DNA of 5,209 nucleotides from Dehalococcoidia bacterium (GTDB lineage: Bacteria; Chloroflexota; Dehalococcoidia; Dehalococcoidales; Fen-1064), in the NCBI GenBank assembly GCA_003153075.1, contig PMBW01000310.1:252-5460 (forward strand), written 5' to 3'. The notes beneath the pieces were generated by a model that had not been told where the DNA came from, did not search any database, and was given only the letters and a program-made list of their open reading frames with translations. The position numbers were made by a program, and so were the translations under genes. Below are positions 1 through 5,149 of this stretch, in pieces (position 1 is the first letter of the stretch; each line of letters opens with the position of its first letter).

Positions 1-20
1 CCCATGTAACCGCTGGGCAT
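1..20 (-). CDS. 5' end of a gene running off the left edge; possible aldehyde:ferredoxin oxidoreductase
   Basis: Only the first six codons and two bases of a seventh are present. Read on the minus strand they give ATG CCC AGC GGT TAC ATG GG, that is M-P-S-G-Y-M-G. The start is supported by a strong Shine-Dalgarno, GGAAGGAG, with five bases between it and the ATG. A regulated-looking promoter lies about 210 bases upstream. The N-terminus (M-x-x-G-Y-M-G) is the way many tungsten-containing aldehyde:ferredoxin oxidoreductases begin, usually followed by K-[IV]-L-x-V-[DN]-L. Those enzymes oxidise aldehydes to acids in the cytoplasm with ferredoxin as electron acceptor. The existence of a gene start is well supported. 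The function rests on seven residues and is a guess from family knowledge; any other protein starting this way would fit equally well. Confidence 0.55.
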
Positions 21-33: not shown

Positions 34-199
34 GACAAAATCAAATTTATGTAAATATTTGAAAAATGATAAAAATTAGTATTGGTGAATAACCTAATTT
101 ATTAGTGCTGCCGTCAACTGCTTTTCTTCAAGGTTCGGTCTATTTAAAAACGTACCGCATGTAACACATGCTTCGTATTGGTTGAAAACAGGCAATTTC

Positions 200-214
200 T
201 AATGTATATTCGTA
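200..214 (-). promoter_or_regulatory. Degenerate copy of the second operator (TATGAA-N2-TTCATA type), left promoter
   Basis: On the minus strand this reads TACGAATATACATTA. It matches 12 of 15 positions of the perfect copy in front of the 780-2603 gene (TATGAATATTCATAA). Its centre is 31.5 bp downstream of the first operator's centre, as in the plus-strand promoter at 2780-2848. Taken alone it would not be called; the position shared by all three promoters makes it credible. Confidence 0.45.
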
Positions 215-231
215 CGGGAATATCATATGAA

Positions 232-246
232 TTAGAACCATGCTAA
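232..246 (-). promoter_or_regulatory. Operator 1, left copy (TTAGCA-N3-TTCTAA)
   Basis: On the minus strand this reads TTAGCATGGTTCTAA, an inverted repeat of 6-bp arms around TGG with one mismatch. It covers the -10 box of the promoter at 240-268, so a bound protein should block RNA polymerase. A further half site, TTAGCA on the minus strand at 250-255, lies in the promoter spacer. The same element is repeated at 2676-2690 and 2802-2816. Confidence 0.6.
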
Positions 247-268
247 CATTGCTAATAATATTTGTCAA
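240..268 (-). promoter_or_regulatory. Promoter of the left-edge gene (TTGACA-N17-TAGCAT)
   Basis: On the minus strand there is a perfect -35 TTGACA (268-263), a 17-bp spacer, and the -10 TAGCAT (245-240). Transcription should start near 233 and run leftward into the gene at the window edge. The -35, the spacer length and the non-consensus -10 are identical to those of the two promoters in the 2604-3082 region. Confidence 0.65.
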
Positions 269-487
269 TGGAATGCGGTTCCGGTTATTGACGCTTATTA
301 TCCTAAAGCTGCGGCTGCAGCCAACGAAATCAAATTGAAGCAAGTGCTTCAAGACGCCTATGAACGCGTAGCAATTCACCATTTCGTGGTATCTTTGCTT
401 CATCCAACGGCATTCGCGATTTGCCAGCTGTGGATAAAGGATAGTTGCAATGCGCAAGCCCGGTTGATTTGGATGGGGTCGGGATAG
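251..487 (+). pseudogene. Remnant of a family-5 solute-binding protein, C-terminal piece only
   Basis: The frame is open from 236 to the TAG at 485-487 and has no credible start codon or ribosome binding site. The segment VPVIDAYYPKAAAAANE followed by KQVLQDAYERVAIHHFVV and AFAICQLWIKD lines up without gaps with the C-terminal part of the intact SBP in this window (DPVYDAMVDKANADLDD up to FYTPWFHG). Shared positions include PV-x-DA, KA-x-A, and the Trp before the final segment. The usual tail ending in W-[IL]-D-Q-x-L-K is missing, lost through frameshift or truncation. The remnant's 5' end overlaps the leftward promoter at 240-268, so the gene was probably truncated when that promoter region was joined to it. 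The assignment is by manual alignment with modest identity. The alternative is a chance open frame, but the conserved spacing argues against that. Confidence 0.5.
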
Positions 488-504
488 CCAATATTGCCGG
501 GCTT
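456..504. repeat. Inverted repeat, 8-bp arms, 33-base loop
   Basis: AAGCCCGG at 456-463 faces CCGGGCTT at 497-504, a perfect 8-bp stem. Inside the loop TTGG (469-472) can pair with CCAA (488-491), giving a two-part hairpin. It sits at the end of the SBP remnant. No T-run follows, so it is not a standard terminator. It may be a relic of the old gene's 3' end. Confidence 0.4.
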
Positions 505-779
505 CATCAGGATTCCGGATAGATAACTAATTTAACAGTCCCGGGTATTATAAAAATCCAGAATGTAAATTTAATGAGACAATTTTAACAAGCATGATCA
601 GCTTATCTATTAATGAATCTAACTTCCTATGCGATTAACGGAAGCATGTTCTGACTAACTTTTATTAGAGTAGGGGGGCTGGTTTGCGTAATTGTTGTTC
701 ACTATTTAGTTGCCCCCCTACTCACCAATATCGTTTAAGTATTACTTGTATCTATTATTGTCACGCTATTTTAAAATTT
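488..779. other. Non-coding stretch between the SBP remnant and the intact SBP gene
   Basis: No supported gene is seen in these 292 bases on either strand. Stop codons are frequent and no ribosome binding site precedes a useful start. The only notable element is the perfect stem-loop at 668-723. The left part probably contains further decayed sequence downstream of the SBP remnant. Confidence 0.5.
668..723. repeat. Perfect 12-bp GC-rich stem-loop downstream of the intact SBP gene
   Basis: GAGTAGGGGGGC (668-679) faces GCCCCCCTACTC (712-723), a perfect 12-bp inverted repeat with a 32-base loop. For the minus-strand SBP gene it starts 57 bases after the stop codon, where a 3' hairpin would protect or end the message. 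No U-tract follows on either strand and the loop is long, so a classical intrinsic terminator is doubtful. A transcript-stabilising hairpin or a tiny inverted-repeat element are alternatives. No target-site duplication is evident next to the arms. Confidence 0.6.
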
Positions 780-2603
780 TTAGTTGCCCATAGATTTCTT
801 TAACTTCTGGTCGATCCACATATACGGAGCTAGTGAAGTCTGATATTGCGTTTCACCCTGATAACCGTGGAACCATGGTGTATAGAAATCCAAAGCAACT
901 TTTTTCCCTAACATCACACTATATTGCATCTTAATGCCATATAAGTCTGCTGCTTTAATATCCGCCATTGCCGATTTATCGTCAAGGTCAGCATTTGCCT
1001 TATCAACCATTGCATCATATACGGGGTCAAGTATATGATTGTACGAATTACGTTTGGCTTGTTTAGACCAGTAGTTATAGAGTGAATTTAGTGGCGGAGT
1101 TGTCCCTGCCCACCCTACATATTGGCTCATTTCCTGCTGCCCGGTAGTGATATAGGCAGCAAAAGTGGCAGGATCCATTACGTTGATTTGCATATCAACG
1201 CCGATAGCGGCGAAATAGGATTTTACTATCTGGTACATTTCCACATCACTATTGCTTGATATAGCAAAAGTGGTTTTAAAACCCTGAGGGTAACCGGCCG
1301 CAGCCAGCAGTTTTTTAGCACCGTCCGGGTTATATGCATAGCTGTCTTTAACATCTTGCGGCCACTCCGCGTAGGGAGCATTGTACCCCTGAATCGCTAC
1401 GCAGCCAGTCGGCAGCCCATCGACATAACCGCCGTAATGAGTTTTTGCTATTGTCGGTAAGTCGACTGCCATCTGCAATGCTTTCCGGACATTAATATCG
1501 CTAAAGGGTTTCTTGGGGATCATCATCATCATACACTCACCAAGGTCCGGCCGGGTTACAAAAAGTAGATCAGGGTTTGTTTTCTTCAAACTTGCTGCAA
1601 CATCGCTGGTTACGTTCTGCACCAAATCAATCTTACCCGTTCGCAGTCCAGCCAAAGCTGTAGCCGGATCAGGTATGACCAGCACCCGAATTCCATCGGG
1701 ATAAGGTAACTTATTCTTTGGGTATTTATAATCGTATAAGTAGAAGTTTGGGTTTCTGACGGCAGTGATGGAGGAGCCGCGAACGTAGTCGTTTAAAAGA
1801 TATGGACCTGTGCCGATAACATGATGCCAGTCATTGACATCACCCCATTGCTTGACTGCATCCGGAGGCATCATGAAGTTATAGGACGCGAGATCAATAA
1901 GCGCGCGGAACATATTACTGGTAGGGATCCTGTTCTGGAAAACAACGGTATTTTGATCAGTCGCGGTCACAGATGTTATATCCGCATAATTAGATTTAGG
2001 GAAAAGCGCGTTGGGGGGGAAACCTGCCAGGCCAAGATTTCGATTCCAGTTCCATGCTATATCGGAAGCATTAACTGCTCTGCCGTTCATCGGCGGTATA
2101 TCCTGCCAAACTGCGGCTTTTCGTATATGGAAAGTATAAGATGTCCAATCCGGAGCTATATCCCAACTTTCAACCAGGTTACCGGCATAGTCAGCGATAG
2201 GATTAAAACCGGTTTTAAAGTCGTTTACATTACGGTCAACTGACAGGTCGAACATAGTCATCTGTCCATAAAACAGACCGAGGGTTTGTGCTGCTGTGCT
2301 GCCCGAAGCACCTAACCCGCTATAGAATGTATCCCAGACACCGTAGTCTTTATCGATACGAAAGTTAAGAAACCCGCCATACTGTGGTGTGCCCGCGGGG
2401 GATGTAGTCGTAGTTGGTTTTGTCACCGGTGTTGAGGTTGTAACCTGAGTTTGGGTCGGTTTAGAAGTTTGAGTTGTTGTTGGCGAAATAGGCGTTGATG
2501 TTGAAGTTTTACTTGGTGTTGTAGATGAGGTCGAACAGGATACTAATAAGATAGCAGCGATAATCAGCGAGAGTAAACTCAACCATGTAAATTTATGCGT
2601 CAC
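780..2603 (-). CDS. ABC transporter substrate-binding lipoprotein, family 5 (peptide/nickel/opine type)
   Basis: This 607-residue protein is a surface lipoprotein that captures a small solute, classically oligopeptides, nickel chelates or similar compounds, and passes it to an ABC permease. Residues 1-22 form a lipoprotein signal peptide (TWLSLLSLIIAAILLVS) ending in lipobox L-V-S-C with Cys23 as the lipidation site. Residues 24-72 are a Ser/Thr/Pro spacer, and the mature fold begins at PQYGG (73-77). Family hallmarks follow: LVESWDIAPDWTSYTFHIRK, GTGPYLLNDYVRG with RNPNFYLYDY, INVRKALQMAVD, and near the end WIDQKLKKSMGN. Cys357 is followed by four consecutive Met, which is odd. The start is GTG at 2603, with GGAGG at 2614-2610 six bases before it. 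No permease or ATPase gene is in the window, so it is an orphan SBP here. Its promoter and two operators lie upstream at 2642-2712. The substrate cannot be told from sequence. The family assignment is secure. Confidence 0.93.
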   Translation of the reverse strand: MTHKFTWLSLLSLIIAAILLVSCSTSSTTPSKTSTSTPISPTTTQTSKPTQTQVTTSTPVTKPTTTTSPAGTPQYGGFLNFRIDKDYGVWDTFYSGLGASGSTAAQTLGLFYGQMTMFDLSVDRNVNDFKTGFNPIADYAGNLVESWDIAPDWTSYTFHIRKAAVWQDIPPMNGRAVNASDIAWNWNRNLGLAGFPPNALFPKSNYADITSVTATDQNTVVFQNRIPTSNMFRALIDLASYNFMMPPDAVKQWGDVNDWHHVIGTGPYLLNDYVRGSSITAVRNPNFYLYDYKYPKNKLPYPDGIRVLVIPDPATALAGLRTGKIDLVQNVTSDVAASLKKTNPDLLFVTRPDLGECMMMMIPKKPFSDINVRKALQMAVDLPTIAKTHYGGYVDGLPTGCVAIQGYNAPYAEWPQDVKDSYAYNPDGAKKLLAAAGYPQGFKTTFAISSNSDVEMYQIVKSYFAAIGVDMQINVMDPATFAAYITTGQQEMSQYVGWAGTTPPLNSLYNYWSKQAKRNSYNHILDPVYDAMVDKANADLDDKSAMADIKAADLYGIKMQYSVMLGKKVALDFYTPWFHGYQGETQYQTSLAPYMWIDQKLKKSMGN

Positions 2604-2641
2604 TTCTTGCCTCCGTTCATAATAATTATTCGATCTTTTAT

Positions 2642-2663
2642 TCCTTATGAATATTCATAAGGA
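2642..2663 (-). promoter_or_regulatory. Operator 2, perfect 22-bp palindrome in the SBP leader
   Basis: This is a gapless perfect palindrome with half-site TCCTTATGAAT. Its core, TATGAA-TA-TTCATA (2646-2659), is the same as at 2834-2847 and near 201-214. It lies about 15 to 36 bases downstream of the predicted start of transcription of the minus-strand SBP gene. A loopless palindrome favours binding of a dimeric protein over an RNA hairpin. A repressor here would act as a roadblock, or would cooperate with a protein on operator 1 about 30.5 bp away. Confidence 0.65.
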
Positions 2664-2675
2664 TTTTGATAAATA

Positions 2676-2690
2676 TTAGCAACATGCTAT
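2676..2690 (-). promoter_or_regulatory. Operator 1, SBP (minus strand) copy
   Basis: On the plus strand this reads TTAGCA-ACA-TGCTAT, 6-bp arms with one outer mismatch. It contains the -10 box of the leftward promoter at 2684-2712. It is the same element as 2802-2816 and 232-246. Confidence 0.65.
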
Positions 2691-2712
2691 CATGGTTCCC
2701 CAGTTTTGTCAA
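2684..2712 (-). promoter_or_regulatory. Promoter of the 780-2603 SBP gene (TTGACA-N17-TAGCAT)
   Basis: On the minus strand there is a perfect -35 TTGACA (2712-2707), a 17-bp spacer, and the -10 TAGCAT (2689-2684). Transcription should start near 2677, giving a leader of roughly 75 bases before the GTG. The architecture matches the other two promoters exactly, and the -10 is covered by operator 1. Confidence 0.7.
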
Positions 2713-2779
2713 TTATATAATTTTCAACTAAAAAGCGAATTAGCATTTTTTAATGTAGTAAAATCTGACTGTAAATACA

Positions 2780-2808
2780 TTGACAAATCCCTTTAACGGT
2801 GTTAGCAT
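2780..2808 (+). promoter_or_regulatory. Regulated promoter facing the second SBP gene (TTGACA-N17-TAGCAT)
   Basis: There is a perfect -35 TTGACA (2780-2785), a 17-bp spacer, and the -10 TAGCAT (2803-2808). Transcription should start near 2815 and run rightward, with about 268 bases of leader before the ATG at 3083. The promoter diverges from the SBP promoter at 2684-2712, with the two -35 boxes 67 bp apart. Confidence 0.7.
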
Positions 2809-2816
2809 GGTGCTAA
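2802..2816 (+). promoter_or_regulatory. Operator 1, perfect copy (TTAGCA-TGG-TGCTAA)
   Basis: A perfect inverted repeat of 6-bp arms with a 3-bp centre. It overlaps the -10 and the expected start of transcription of the rightward promoter. Its size and placement are typical of a MarR-family repressor site. The MarR gene at 4700-5149 is the nearest candidate regulator; this link is inferred. Confidence 0.7.
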
Positions 2817-2832
2817 TTTGCATTATTTTCCA

Positions 2833-2848
2833 CTATGAAGTTTCATAG
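2833..2848 (+). promoter_or_regulatory. Operator 2, rightward promoter copy (CTATGAA-GT-TTCATAG)
   Basis: Perfect 7-bp arms around a 2-bp centre. The centre is 31.5 bp downstream of operator 1's centre, close to three helical turns. The bases after it, GGGAATAA, resemble those after the copy at 2642-2663 (AGGAATAA), so the similarity between the two promoters extends into the leaders. Confidence 0.65.
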
Positions 2849-2931
2849 GGAATAACCTATTGAATGTCTGTTAGTTATATTTTAAAACAAATACATTATA
2901 TATACACCAATTACAATTAAGGACTTTTATT

Positions 2932-2986
2932 ATAGCTGCAGAGAGCCGATACAAGAACTGAAAACATGCCTGCTGCAAGTTGCTAT
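2932..2986 (+). other. Possible structured leader RNA hairpin ahead of the second SBP gene
   Basis: ATAGC-TGCAG (2932-2941) can pair with CTGCA (2973-2977) and GCTAT (2982-2986), leaving a 4-base bulge AGTT and a loop of about 31 bases. The loop includes CAGAGAGCCGA-like sequence reminiscent of T-box leaders, but no T-box antiterminator core or terminator is present. A tiny ORF (2965-2991) lacks a ribosome binding site. The function is unknown, and it may be decayed sequence. Confidence 0.3.
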
Positions 2987-3004
2987 TGTTAATTTAACCG
3001 AAAC

Positions 3005-3021
3005 AATTGACTGAATTGACT
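3005..3021 (+). repeat. Tandem direct repeat AATTGACT
   Basis: AATTGACT occurs at 3005-3012 and again at 3014-3021, a 9-bp period. The second copy supplies a -35-like TTGACT. It could be a small duplication or a pair of activator half sites. Confidence 0.45.
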
Positions 3022-3043
3022 TGGCGCTAAGGTGAACCATAAT
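3016..3043 (+). promoter_or_regulatory. Possible second, proximal promoter of the second SBP gene
   Basis: TTGACT (3016-3021), a 16-bp spacer and CATAAT (3038-3043) each differ from consensus by one base. A start near 3050 would give a short leader of about 33 bases. It lacks the operator modules seen at the other promoters, so it could give unregulated basal expression. It is moderately supported because AT-rich DNA often yields such matches. Confidence 0.4.
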
Positions 3044-3072
3044 TTTATTGTTAATAATTTCAACGTTATACA

Positions 3073-3079
3073 AGGAGGT
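3073..3079 (+). promoter_or_regulatory. Ribosome binding site deciding the start of the second SBP gene
   Basis: AGGAGGT sits just before the ATG at 3083, with four bases between GGAGG and ATG, which is slightly short. It makes ATG 3083 far more likely than the upstream in-frame GTG at 3032, which has no proper site. Confidence 0.75.
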
Positions 3080-3082
3080 AAA

Positions 3083-4591
3083 ATGAAGTCAGATACTCAA
3101 AGGGCACACACTACACGGCCAACCGATCAGAAAACCAGGACAGCAGCGGCGGTGGAACCGCAATACGGAGGAGTGCTGCGAATCGCCAATACCTATGTGC
3201 TCCCACCCAGGATGGGTGTTCCGGGAAGAATAAATGTAGGCGGTATTCATATATTGCCGATGGTTGAAAATTTTTTCCGGGTTGACCGAGCCGGCAAATT
3301 AGTGCCGCATTTGGCGGAATCATATGAATATGATAATGACGGGCTGAAACTCACGTTGCGGTTGAGAAAGGGCGTGAAGTTTCATGACGGTACTGACTTT
3401 AATGCCGAAGCCGCCAAATGGAATTTGCTGAAGGCCCGGGAAAACAACGCAACCTTAAAGAACCTGTTATCCGTCGATGTAATTGACGAGTACACCATAT
3501 TATTGAACGTAAAAAGCTTTAGCAACCACTTTTTGACTTGTCTTGCCTATAATGGTGGATGCATCCTGTCACCGACGGCCTATAAAACCTACGGCGAAGA
3601 TTATTGCTTGTTGCACCCGGTCGGCACCGGCTCGTTCAAATTTGCGAGTTACGAATTGGACGTCAAACTGACGGTGGAGCGGTTCGACGGCTACTGGCAG
3701 AAGGGGAAACCCTATCTGGATAAGATTGAGATGCTCTATGTTCCCAACATGATAAAAGCCACTAATATGTTAAGGCAGGGGGAAGTGGACGTCGTTCTGA
3801 ATATTAATGGCGAGTCTGCCGATCTACTAAAATCAGAAGGATATGTCGTCACCGAACTGCCCTGGACGATGGAAGGGCTGAACCCCGATTCAAAAAATGC
3901 CGATTCACCGTATCACGATAAGCGGGTGCGTCAGGCGGTCGAGTACGCTATCGACCGTCCGGCGATGGCAAGAGACCTGGGGCACGGCTACTGGCAACCC
4001 CTTACCCAGCTGGCCACCGATGCAGTCTACGGCTACAATCCGGCCATCGAAGACCGCGCCTACAATCCGGACAAGGCCCGACAGCTGCTGGCAGAGGCCG
4101 GGTATCCCCACGGTTTCAAGACAAAATTAATCGGGGGAGAGGGCATGTAACTCGCGAAGATCTTCGCGGAGATAAAGAAATATCTGGCTGTCGTCGGGAT
4201 CGACGTTGAGATTGAAATCGCTGAACCGGCGATATGGAAACAATACCGGGCGGATAAGCCGTGGCACAATGCCATGTTAATGAACCATTACGCCACGGAT
4301 CCGAACTTCACCTGGTCTGTTTTCGGCTTCCACAGCAGCAAAGAGTACGGACACACCAGCCAGCTGAGAAACTTCGATAATATCGTCAACGATATGTTAC
4401 AGGCGCGGGACTATGATACGATGGCCAAAAACACCCAGCGATTGATCAAACATGTGCATGATGAAGCAGTGGTAATTCCGCTGATCATCGACACCTCTAT
4501 CGCCGCTACCAGTACAAAAGTCCACGACCTGCAGTTCTACGAGATTCATTTGATGCTTTGGCTGCCGGAGAACGGTTGGAAAGAGCAGTAG
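3083..4591 (+). pseudogene. Family-5 ABC substrate-binding protein gene with in-frame stop and no signal peptide
   Basis: Read through one stop, this frame encodes about 502 codons of a family-5 solute-binding protein. It shows PQYGGVLRIA at residues 26-35, LAESYEYDNDGLKLTLRLRK, VKFHDGTDFNAEAAKW, PVGTGSFKFASYE, DKRVRQAVEYAIDRPAMA, and YNPDKARQLLAEAGYPHGFK. TAA at 4148-4150 (codon 356) interrupts it, yet the same frame stays coding to the TAG at 4589 (LAKIFAEIKKYLAVVGIDVE onward, VVIPLIIDTS near the end). A single C-to-T change from CAA would explain the stop. The N-terminus (MKSDTQRAHTTRPTDQKTRT) is hydrophilic: no signal peptide, no lipobox, so even a full product would stay in the cytoplasm. 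Upstream sequence contains no lost signal sequence in frame. The gene is visibly more GC-rich than the MarR gene and the flanks. A truncated 355-residue product lacks part of lobe II. It is probably a recent pseudogene; a sequencing error or recoding remains possible. Confidence 0.8.
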
Positions 4592-4699: not shown

Positions 4700-5149
4700 A
4701 TGAAAAAAGCAGCAAAGCCAATAACGAAGTTTGACTTATTCCTGTTAATGGGCAAAATAAACCATTTAACCTATCTATCCAGGCAAAAAGAATTAAGCCA
4801 CTACCATATTCCAAGCCAGCAATTTTATGTTTTGCGGATTATACAGGAATTGGGTACTCAGGCTACGTTGACCAAAGTCGCAAAACACGTTGAACGTAAA
4901 ATCAATGTCATTTCCAGGCAGACTATTAGCATGGAAAAAGACGGATTGATCAAGCGTATCAAAGACACACCAAAGTCAAGACTTTTAAGAATGGAATTGA
5001 CGGACAAAGGTCTTGAAATGATCAAAATCGGCAAGGACAGTAAAACGATCGATACTATATTGTCGGTTTTAACAGAAAAAGAGCTTCAGGCCATGTATGT
5101 AAGCCTGAACAAGATATTAGGTAAATTAAAAGAAGGAATTGAAGTCTAG
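4700..5149 (+). CDS. MarR-family winged-helix transcriptional regulator
   Basis: This 149-residue protein has the usual MarR length and layout. N-terminal and C-terminal helices (about 10-33 and 104-149) form the dimer interface. The winged helix-turn-helix spans about 40-101, with TLTKVAKHVERK (56-67), the recognition helix in INVISRQTISMEKDGL (68-83), and the wing IKRIKDTPKSRLLRMELT (84-101). Such dimers bind palindromes in promoters and usually release DNA on binding a small ligand, often a phenolic or organic acid. ATG at 4700 is chosen over TTG at 4694 because AGGAAGA (4686-4692) is seven bases before it. It follows the broken SBP gene by 108 bases on the same strand with only a weak terminator between, so co-transcription is possible. 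I infer that it may control the operators at 2802-2816, 2676-2690 and 232-246. None of those elements lies directly upstream of this gene. The ligand is unknown. Confidence 0.92.
   Translation: MKKAAKPITKFDLFLLMGKINHLTYLSRQKELSHYHIPSQQFYVLRIIQELGTQATLTKVAKHVERKINVISRQTISMEKDGLIKRIKDTPKSRLLRMELTDKGLEMIKIGKDSKTIDTILSVLTEKELQAMYVSLNKILGKLKEGIEV

Follow-up and report, generated by a model that had tools for sequence, protein, structure and literature searches.

The marRAB operator of Escherichia coli contains two MarR sites alike in sequence, the first close to the promoter hexamers and the second farther downstream, and RdhR is the MarR-type regulator encoded beside rdhA. Here we describe a family of promoters with putative MarR operators, found in a 5,209-nucleotide stretch of a Dehalococcoidia bacterium (the window; positions 252 to 5,460 of contig PMBW01000310.1, with a G+C content of 43%). 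Excerpts of PMC12016517 describe MarR proteins as typically homodimers that bind palindromes of 16-20 bp and repress through overlap with the -10/-35 elements. The window resembles this general MarR repressor in having a linked MarR gene and an AT-rich inverted repeat in the promoter region, but the site that is best conserved here is found downstream of the -10, spanning 24-26 bp, and binding of MarR to it is putative. Two palindromic sites per promoter also occur in marRAB and are therefore not new in kind; here, however, the palindromes differ in sequence and occur apart in relatives. MarR-type regulator genes adjoin rdhA in Dehalococcoidia according to excerpts of PMC4959651, an arrangement similar to the present one in bacterial class and in placing a MarR-type gene beside its target, although the targets here are genes for solute-binding proteins (SBPs) of the SBP_bac_5 family instead. 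No printed account of this regulon was found in the open-licence literature searched.

Three promoters in the window (A, B and C; Table 1) share one design, with a TGn-extended -10 in each. Promoter B reads into an SBP_bac_5 gene, and promoter C into a second SBP_bac_5 gene and the MarR gene. A first-pass annotation of the sequence had seen in them a regulon module with two palindromic operators, TTAGCA-N3-TGCTAA around the -10 (palindrome 1) and TATGAA-N2-TTCATA further downstream, occupied together from one face of the DNA. The first part of this description is confirmed: TTGACA, a spacer of exactly 17 bp and TAGCAT within palindrome 1 are present at 268-232 (-), 2712-2676 (-) and 2780-2816 (+), with one mismatch to the palindrome in A, one in B and none in C. 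For this part the low probability of a coincidence also stands, as TTGACA-N17-TAGCAT-NNT(G/T)CTAA occurs three times exactly in the window against a mean of 0.01 in shuffled sequence (up to 3 mismatches allowed; none of 200 dinucleotide shuffles reached three matches). When relatives are compared, the apparent composite resolves into an ordinary promoter plus one operator; what survives is a regulon-like promoter family, and not a rigid composite of two operators.

The sites belong to a multi-copy, lineage-specific family of SBP_bac_5 promoters (peptide/nickel-type ATP-binding cassette, ABC) of the Dehalococcoidia. What is observed directly is that the sequences form a family, that this family recurs in one related genome, which genes it targets, and that MarR genes are close to it, both within the window and beside two modules of that genome. 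We consider it probable that these promoters are repressed by MarR paralogues at a single operator located just past the start of transcription. RNA polymerase would bind the near-consensus -35 and extended -10 (TTGACA-N17-TGnTAGCAT, a strong sigma-70-type promoter), with a putative start 6-8 nt past TAGCAT, near a conserved TAA. The main operator would be one 24-26-bp palindrome, ATCCnTATGAAnnTTCATAnGGAT, at approximately +10 to +40 from that start. A MarR-type dimer encoded beside its targets may bind this palindrome and keep the polymerase from forming an open complex or leaving the promoter, until a putative inducer, presumably the transport substrate or a product thereof, releases MarR and the SBP gene is induced, consistent with uptake control. 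The palindrome over the -10/+1 region would be mostly extended -10 plus start-site TAA, and may be a weak second site in a subset of cases. If true, this would provide a first map of regulation in a group of peatland Dehalococcoidia represented here by metagenomes alone, as well as an unusual set of paralogous MarR regulators, operators and targets in one genome, suited to studies of how specificity splits after duplication.

Homologues of the window MarR protein numbered 146 at E ≤ 0.001 and, among the 120 listed, one is named Dehalococcoidales bacterium. A contig scan with an alignment of 42 MarR homologues yielded at least 72 loci (given as L numbers); a search of viral contigs with the MarR alignment found no relative. 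Matches to the alignment number 16 in G001 and 10 in G002, two Dehalococcoidia assemblies of fen origin (fen_1014, 2.8 Mb, and fen_1064, 2.1 Mb, respectively), a large expansion of one MarR family in both. The seven loci closest to the window MarR among the matches listed (L001-L007, 51-76% identity) also come from these two assemblies. The promoter recurs as well: TTGACAN16-18TAGCATNNTNCTAA has four exact matches in G001 (control 0) and none in G002, while TTGACAN17TAGCATNNTGCTAA with 3 mismatches allowed has 16 in G001 (control 1) and 10 in G002 (control 0), and with two mismatches matches in 5 of 14 family genomes (controls 0). Five G001 promoters, namely the four exact ones and the weaker L199 (also labelled L092), carry TTGACA, TAGCAT and the ATCCnTATGAAnnTTCATAnGGAT palindrome, which starts 16-21 bp past the -10 and takes the form ATCC-N-TATGAA-NN-TTCATA-N-GGAT, variably degenerate, in all five. 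In four of these modules the promoter is followed by an SBP_bac_5 gene; the fifth module runs off its contig. Leave-one-out scoring gave p 0.002, the floor of the test, for each of the five sites as well as for B and C of the window. The palindromic site adjoining a promoter is conserved in this one related genome; outside G001, no downstream operator was found at L077, L099, L100, L101, L102, L249 (G002) or L178 (G189), with p values of 0.13-0.75.

The extended -10 backbone is in itself an ordinary strong promoter in G001 and G002, because TTGACA-N14-TGNTANNNT, which specifies the TGnTA backbone, matches 70 times in G001 and 41 times in G002 with no match of the reversed-pattern control in either. 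The 70 G001 promoters were drawn up as a list to avoid choice by palindrome 1, and the 62 bases after each -10 were read. TAGCAT is found in seven of them, and an SBP_bac_5 gene lies within 2.2 kb downstream of five of these seven, compared with 16 of the 63 others (p 0.022); of the remaining two, L210 runs off its contig and L237 has no SBP_bac_5 gene. A downstream operator at p ≤ 0.01 (leave-one-out matrix) is present at 5/7 TAGCAT promoters and at 9/63 others, where approximately 0.6 would be expected, and six of those nine also lead to SBP_bac_5 genes. Run over 348 kb of partly overlapping sequence from G001, with four permutations of its columns as a slight control, the matrix gave seven matches at 14 bits and none in any control: the five training sites, L105:6955 and L146:1343. 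L105:6955 (TTGACA-N18-TAGCAT), found by the matrix alone, has its operator 18 bp past the -10 and precedes a gene that matches GH42 and DUF5597. At 12 bits there were 10 matches against 1-3 in the controls, and at 9 bits there was no excess (20, controls 5-25). A scan for the palindrome across the 14 family genomes located four sites in G001 and one in G005; three of the G001 sites are at TAGCAT promoters and the fourth is directly behind TTGACT-N17-TAAACT. The weight of the argument rests on the palindrome coinciding with promoters, and not on the palindrome scan by itself. As a separate observation, a c-di-GMP-II (cyclic di-GMP) riboswitch identified by Rfam occupies L146 4249-4332 (+), directly behind an operator-bearing promoter (4148), and is followed by NTF2-like and ferredoxin/nitroreductase-like genes (named by eye).

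Within the window, the downstream palindrome extends beyond the 14-mer first described, with ATCC/GGAT outer arms flanking it. The 14-mer TATGAA-N2-TTCATA is exact in B and C, while in A (TACGAA-TA-TACATT) it is mismatched at 3/12 positions, and the claim of an identical second palindrome at all three promoters is too strong. Sites with up to 3 mismatches to the 14-mer number nine in the window (two exact, B and C) against 4.2 expected, a count reached in 2/200 shuffles; under this motif A is not a match and lies at chance level. Scored with a 26-bp symmetric matrix built from the seven other sites, A reaches p 0.002, the floor of 500 shuffles, which suggests that it is probably a degenerate member of the operator family. 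MarR remains the leading candidate regulator.

We regard it as unlikely that both palindromes are functional operators, on which two MarR dimers or a tetramer would sit together on one DNA face. Both are present in 7/8 modules (three in the window, five in G001; at least 4/6 pairs for palindrome 1), a co-occurrence biased upwards, because it was a search for palindrome 1 that first brought up four of the five G001 modules. The centre-to-centre distances originally given for A, B and C (31.5, 30.5 and 31.5 bp) are correct, but those of the G001 modules are 31.5, 33.5, 33.5, 28.5 and 32.5 bp, the shortest belonging to L199, which is weakest in palindrome 1. Across the eight modules the range of 28.5-33.5 bp amounts to five bp, half a helical turn, and the same-face constraint is therefore unsupported. 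Nor do the two palindromes always occur together. The operator is present with few palindrome-1 pairs at L105:6955 (1/6) and L146:4148 (3/6), and among weaker cases at L230 (1/6), L226 (3/6) and L221 (3/6, despite which CTAA is present); three of the seven G001 TAGCAT promoters have 0/6 (L194), 2/6 (L199) and 3/6 (L237) pairs. Conversely, L077, L100, L101, L102 and L178, all in other genomes, have 4-5/6 pairs without a downstream operator (p 0.25-0.75).

In favour of palindrome 1, CTAA is found at the symmetric offset in 4/7 cases behind TAGCAT and in 2/63 behind other -10s (p 5e-4), an enrichment on which its being a pure accident was rejected. Pairs at gap 3 also average 3.7/6 behind TAGCAT, against approximately 2 elsewhere. 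Against it, TAA is common within these few bases in general, in 24/63 of the other promoters, which fits a start-site preference. A near-exact palindrome-1 promoter was found in 2/393 sampled genomes of the class, with four of the five sites in G001; TAGCAT plus CTAA as a class-wide operator was rejected on this count and on the G189 site L178, which has no operator (p 0.25). Palindrome 1 is at most auxiliary. Its TTAGCA...TGCTAA arms recall the outer arms of CIRCE, the HrcA element, whose consensus TTAGCACTC-N9-GAGTGCTAA has 9-bp arms and a 9-bp gap; here the arms are 6 bp and the gap 3 bp, and an identity with CIRCE was rejected because arms and gap differ.

The separate occurrence of the palindromes, together with the several MarR groups within one genome, would also agree with a separate regulator for each palindrome, such as a global protein over the -10 and a local MarR downstream. 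This is less likely still, as the concentration of near-exact palindrome 1 sites in G001 is unlike that of a global operator and there is no candidate protein. It is very improbable that the downstream palindrome acts as RNA, as a 5' leader hairpin that alters stability or translation, even though it lies inside the inferred transcript and some copies fold well: B at -10.8 kcal/mol (z -5.1), C at -10.1 (z -4.5) and L204 at -7.7 (z -2.9). Operator A is unfolded (0 kcal/mol), and L224 and L210 were matched by 48/200 and 36/200 shuffles, respectively (folding covered A, B, C, L204, L224 and L210, with L189 and L199 left out). In addition, the L107 operator lies directly against the -10 of a TTGACA-N16-TATAAT promoter on the opposite strand, as would be expected if a DNA operator served two divergent genes. 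Scarcely credible is a reading of the three modules as recent copies of one sequence, whose shared design would say nothing on function: A and C do form an 84-nt inverted repeat (70%) and agree at 48/92 positions outside the promoter motifs, but A-B (31/92) and B-C (35/92) are modestly above chance with operator positions included, and another genome has the same design with different spacers.

Repression by MarR paralogues at the downstream operator can also be examined from the regulator side. In 12 loci a MarR gene is divergent from an SBP_bac_5 gene within 1 kb (small intervening genes possible), and the operators of L106 and L107 sit between divergent MarR and SBP genes; no MarR match was present in the examined stretches of L103, L104 and L105. 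By eye, at least two MarR groups can be told apart by recognition helix, SRQ and NTLS.QMTRM. A second operator class, ATATTCGnTAnCGAATAT, occupies the same downstream place at 12/63 non-TAGCAT promoters by pattern, six of the 12 being at SBP genes. Second-class sites (p ≤ 0.01) are found at the MarR genes L154, L164 and L166, all with the NTLS.QMTRM helix, and first-class sites (p ≤ 0.01) at L106 and L107, both with SRQ. Assigning an operator class to every MarR gene did not succeed; 6/26 have a site of either class at p ≤ 0.01.

Several observations weigh against the proposed mechanism. L161 belongs to the second MarR group but has a site of the first operator class (p 0.007), which speaks against a clean rule, and 20/26 MarR genes, the window's included, have neither class within 330 bp upstream (p ≤ 0.01); the link between MarR and operator is loose. 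In G002, no first-class operator was found at promoters despite the 10 MarR matches in that genome. The palindrome pattern alone is weakly enriched, with 4 sites against 2 control sites in G001 and equal numbers in G005 (one control), and controls exceed matches in G006, G013 and G014, while L146:1343 scores at least 14 bits in the matrix search without an adjoining promoter. The enrichment of CTAA behind TAGCAT favours some role for palindrome 1, and the hairpins of B, C and L204, within the inferred transcript, beat nearly all shuffles.

More tentatively, and with less confidence than in the repression itself, it is possible that this lineage wires many SBP genes singly, each with a strong promoter, a swappable downstream operator, one of many MarR paralogues of diverging DNA specificity and, in some relatives' copies (not the window), a structured leader RNA without an Rfam entry before the SBP gene. 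Each promoter would in that case act as an addressable slot, and the pairs of operator and regulator would form a natural series for following the divergence of DNA specificity upon duplication. The leader RNA, approximately 130-150 nt long, is placed between promoters of this kind and SBP genes at L107, L106, L154, L233 and L007, and has a long closing stem with conserved CCAGGGTACTG and CCTCCCGTGATnGGAGCCCTGGGAGTAATCGGG. A model built from six copies matched in at least 8/14 family genomes, at no fewer than 23 places (L253-L275; in some genomes 150 candidates were scored). Covariation is strong: among the copies at 23 places, both partners have changed in 25 of 39 pairs, and 91.6% of cells pair, compared with 35-55% after sliding, in an alignment that leans towards the model since six of the 23 copies built it. 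A 23-copy model with stricter filters located the RNA in 26/393 sampled genomes of the class, including 28 new loci (L276-L303). Neighbouring genes encode SBP_bac_5 and, in other genomes, ribonucleotide reductase, radical SAM and SBP_bac_11 proteins and, more weakly, a reductive-dehalogenase-like protein (Pfam cut-off only) and ABC permease-like proteins (by eye). Rfam 15 gave no match at the gathering threshold for seven loci, nor by E-value for one L107 stretch, for 13 of the first 23 loci and for 14 of the 28 new ones. The element is a candidate riboswitch. An rdhA motif has been described in Dehalococcoides (PMC11109978), which may or may not be the same element. For the window itself, the leader-RNA model (R1) found no match up to E 10 and an Rfam scan none at the gathering threshold.

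Table 1 Features of the window and leader RNA copies in relatives.
Feature	Coordinates	Strand	Remarks
Promoter A	240..268	-	TTGACA (268-263), 17 bp, extended -10 TGTTAGCAT, TAGCAT 245-240
Palindrome 1 of A	232..246	-	TTAGCATGGTTCTAA, 5/6 pairs
Downstream operator of A	195..220	-	26 bp, degenerate; score 11.3 (p 0.002) with matrix built without A
Promoter B	2684..2712	-	TTGACA-N17-TAGCAT, TGA-extended -10
Palindrome 1 of B	2676..2690	-	ATAGCATGTTGCTAA, 5/6 pairs
Downstream operator of B	2640..2665	-	AATCCTTATGAATATTCATAAGGAAT, core palindrome exact (2646-2659); leave-one-out score 26.4
Promoter C	2780..2808	+	TTGACA-N17-TAGCAT, TGT-extended -10
Palindrome 1 of C	2802..2816	+	TTAGCATGGTGCTAA, 6/6 pairs
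Downstream operator of C	2828..2853	+	TTCCACTATGAAGTTTCATAGGGAAT, core exact (2834-2847); leave-one-out score 13.1
Probable gene start behind promoter A	1..20	-	Truncated at window edge; AGGAG then ATG at 20-18, read from sequence; leader ~210 nt
SBP_bac_5 solute-binding lipoprotein gene (SBP1)	780..2603	-	Pfam 1.1e-66; lipoprotein by eye; leader ~75 nt from promoter B
Second SBP_bac_5 gene	3083..4591	+	Shine-Dalgarno AAGGAGG; leader ~265 nt from promoter C; signal peptide absent by eye
MarR-family regulator gene	4700..5149	+	Pfam MarR 6.3e-6; downstream of SBP gene behind promoter C
Leader RNA, L107 (L253)	1380-1536	-	
Leader RNA, L106 region (L261)			
Leader RNA, L154	5459-5620	+	
Leader RNA, L007	4293-4448	-	

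The second SBP_bac_5 gene of the window is split by an in-frame TAA at 4148-4150; when its pieces were searched separately, piece 2 matched only NCBIfam nickel_nikA (3.3e-5). A similar gene at L107 7195-8688 is one uninterrupted frame. A remnant of an SBP_bac_5 C-terminus is found at 272-484 (+), with 36/68 residues (53%) identical to an SBP in L107. With this remnant and the interrupted second gene, the locus resembles a zone in which SBP copies are turned over, and such turnover would explain the repeated promoters. No relative of SBP1 was found in a search against genome contigs, and window positions 2600-3300 gave nothing when searched against plasmids in near mode. Between the remnant and SBP1, at 668-723 (+), lies an inverted repeat with perfect 12-bp arms (GAGTAGGGGGGC / GCCCCCCTACTC) around a loop of 32 bases. 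By eye, SBP_bac_5 proteins without a signal peptide are encoded at window 3083-4591, L107 2312-4000, L147 3989-5674 and L153 1554-3236; such signal-less proteins, found near MarR genes and signal-bearing SBP genes, are possibly cytoplasmic binding proteins.

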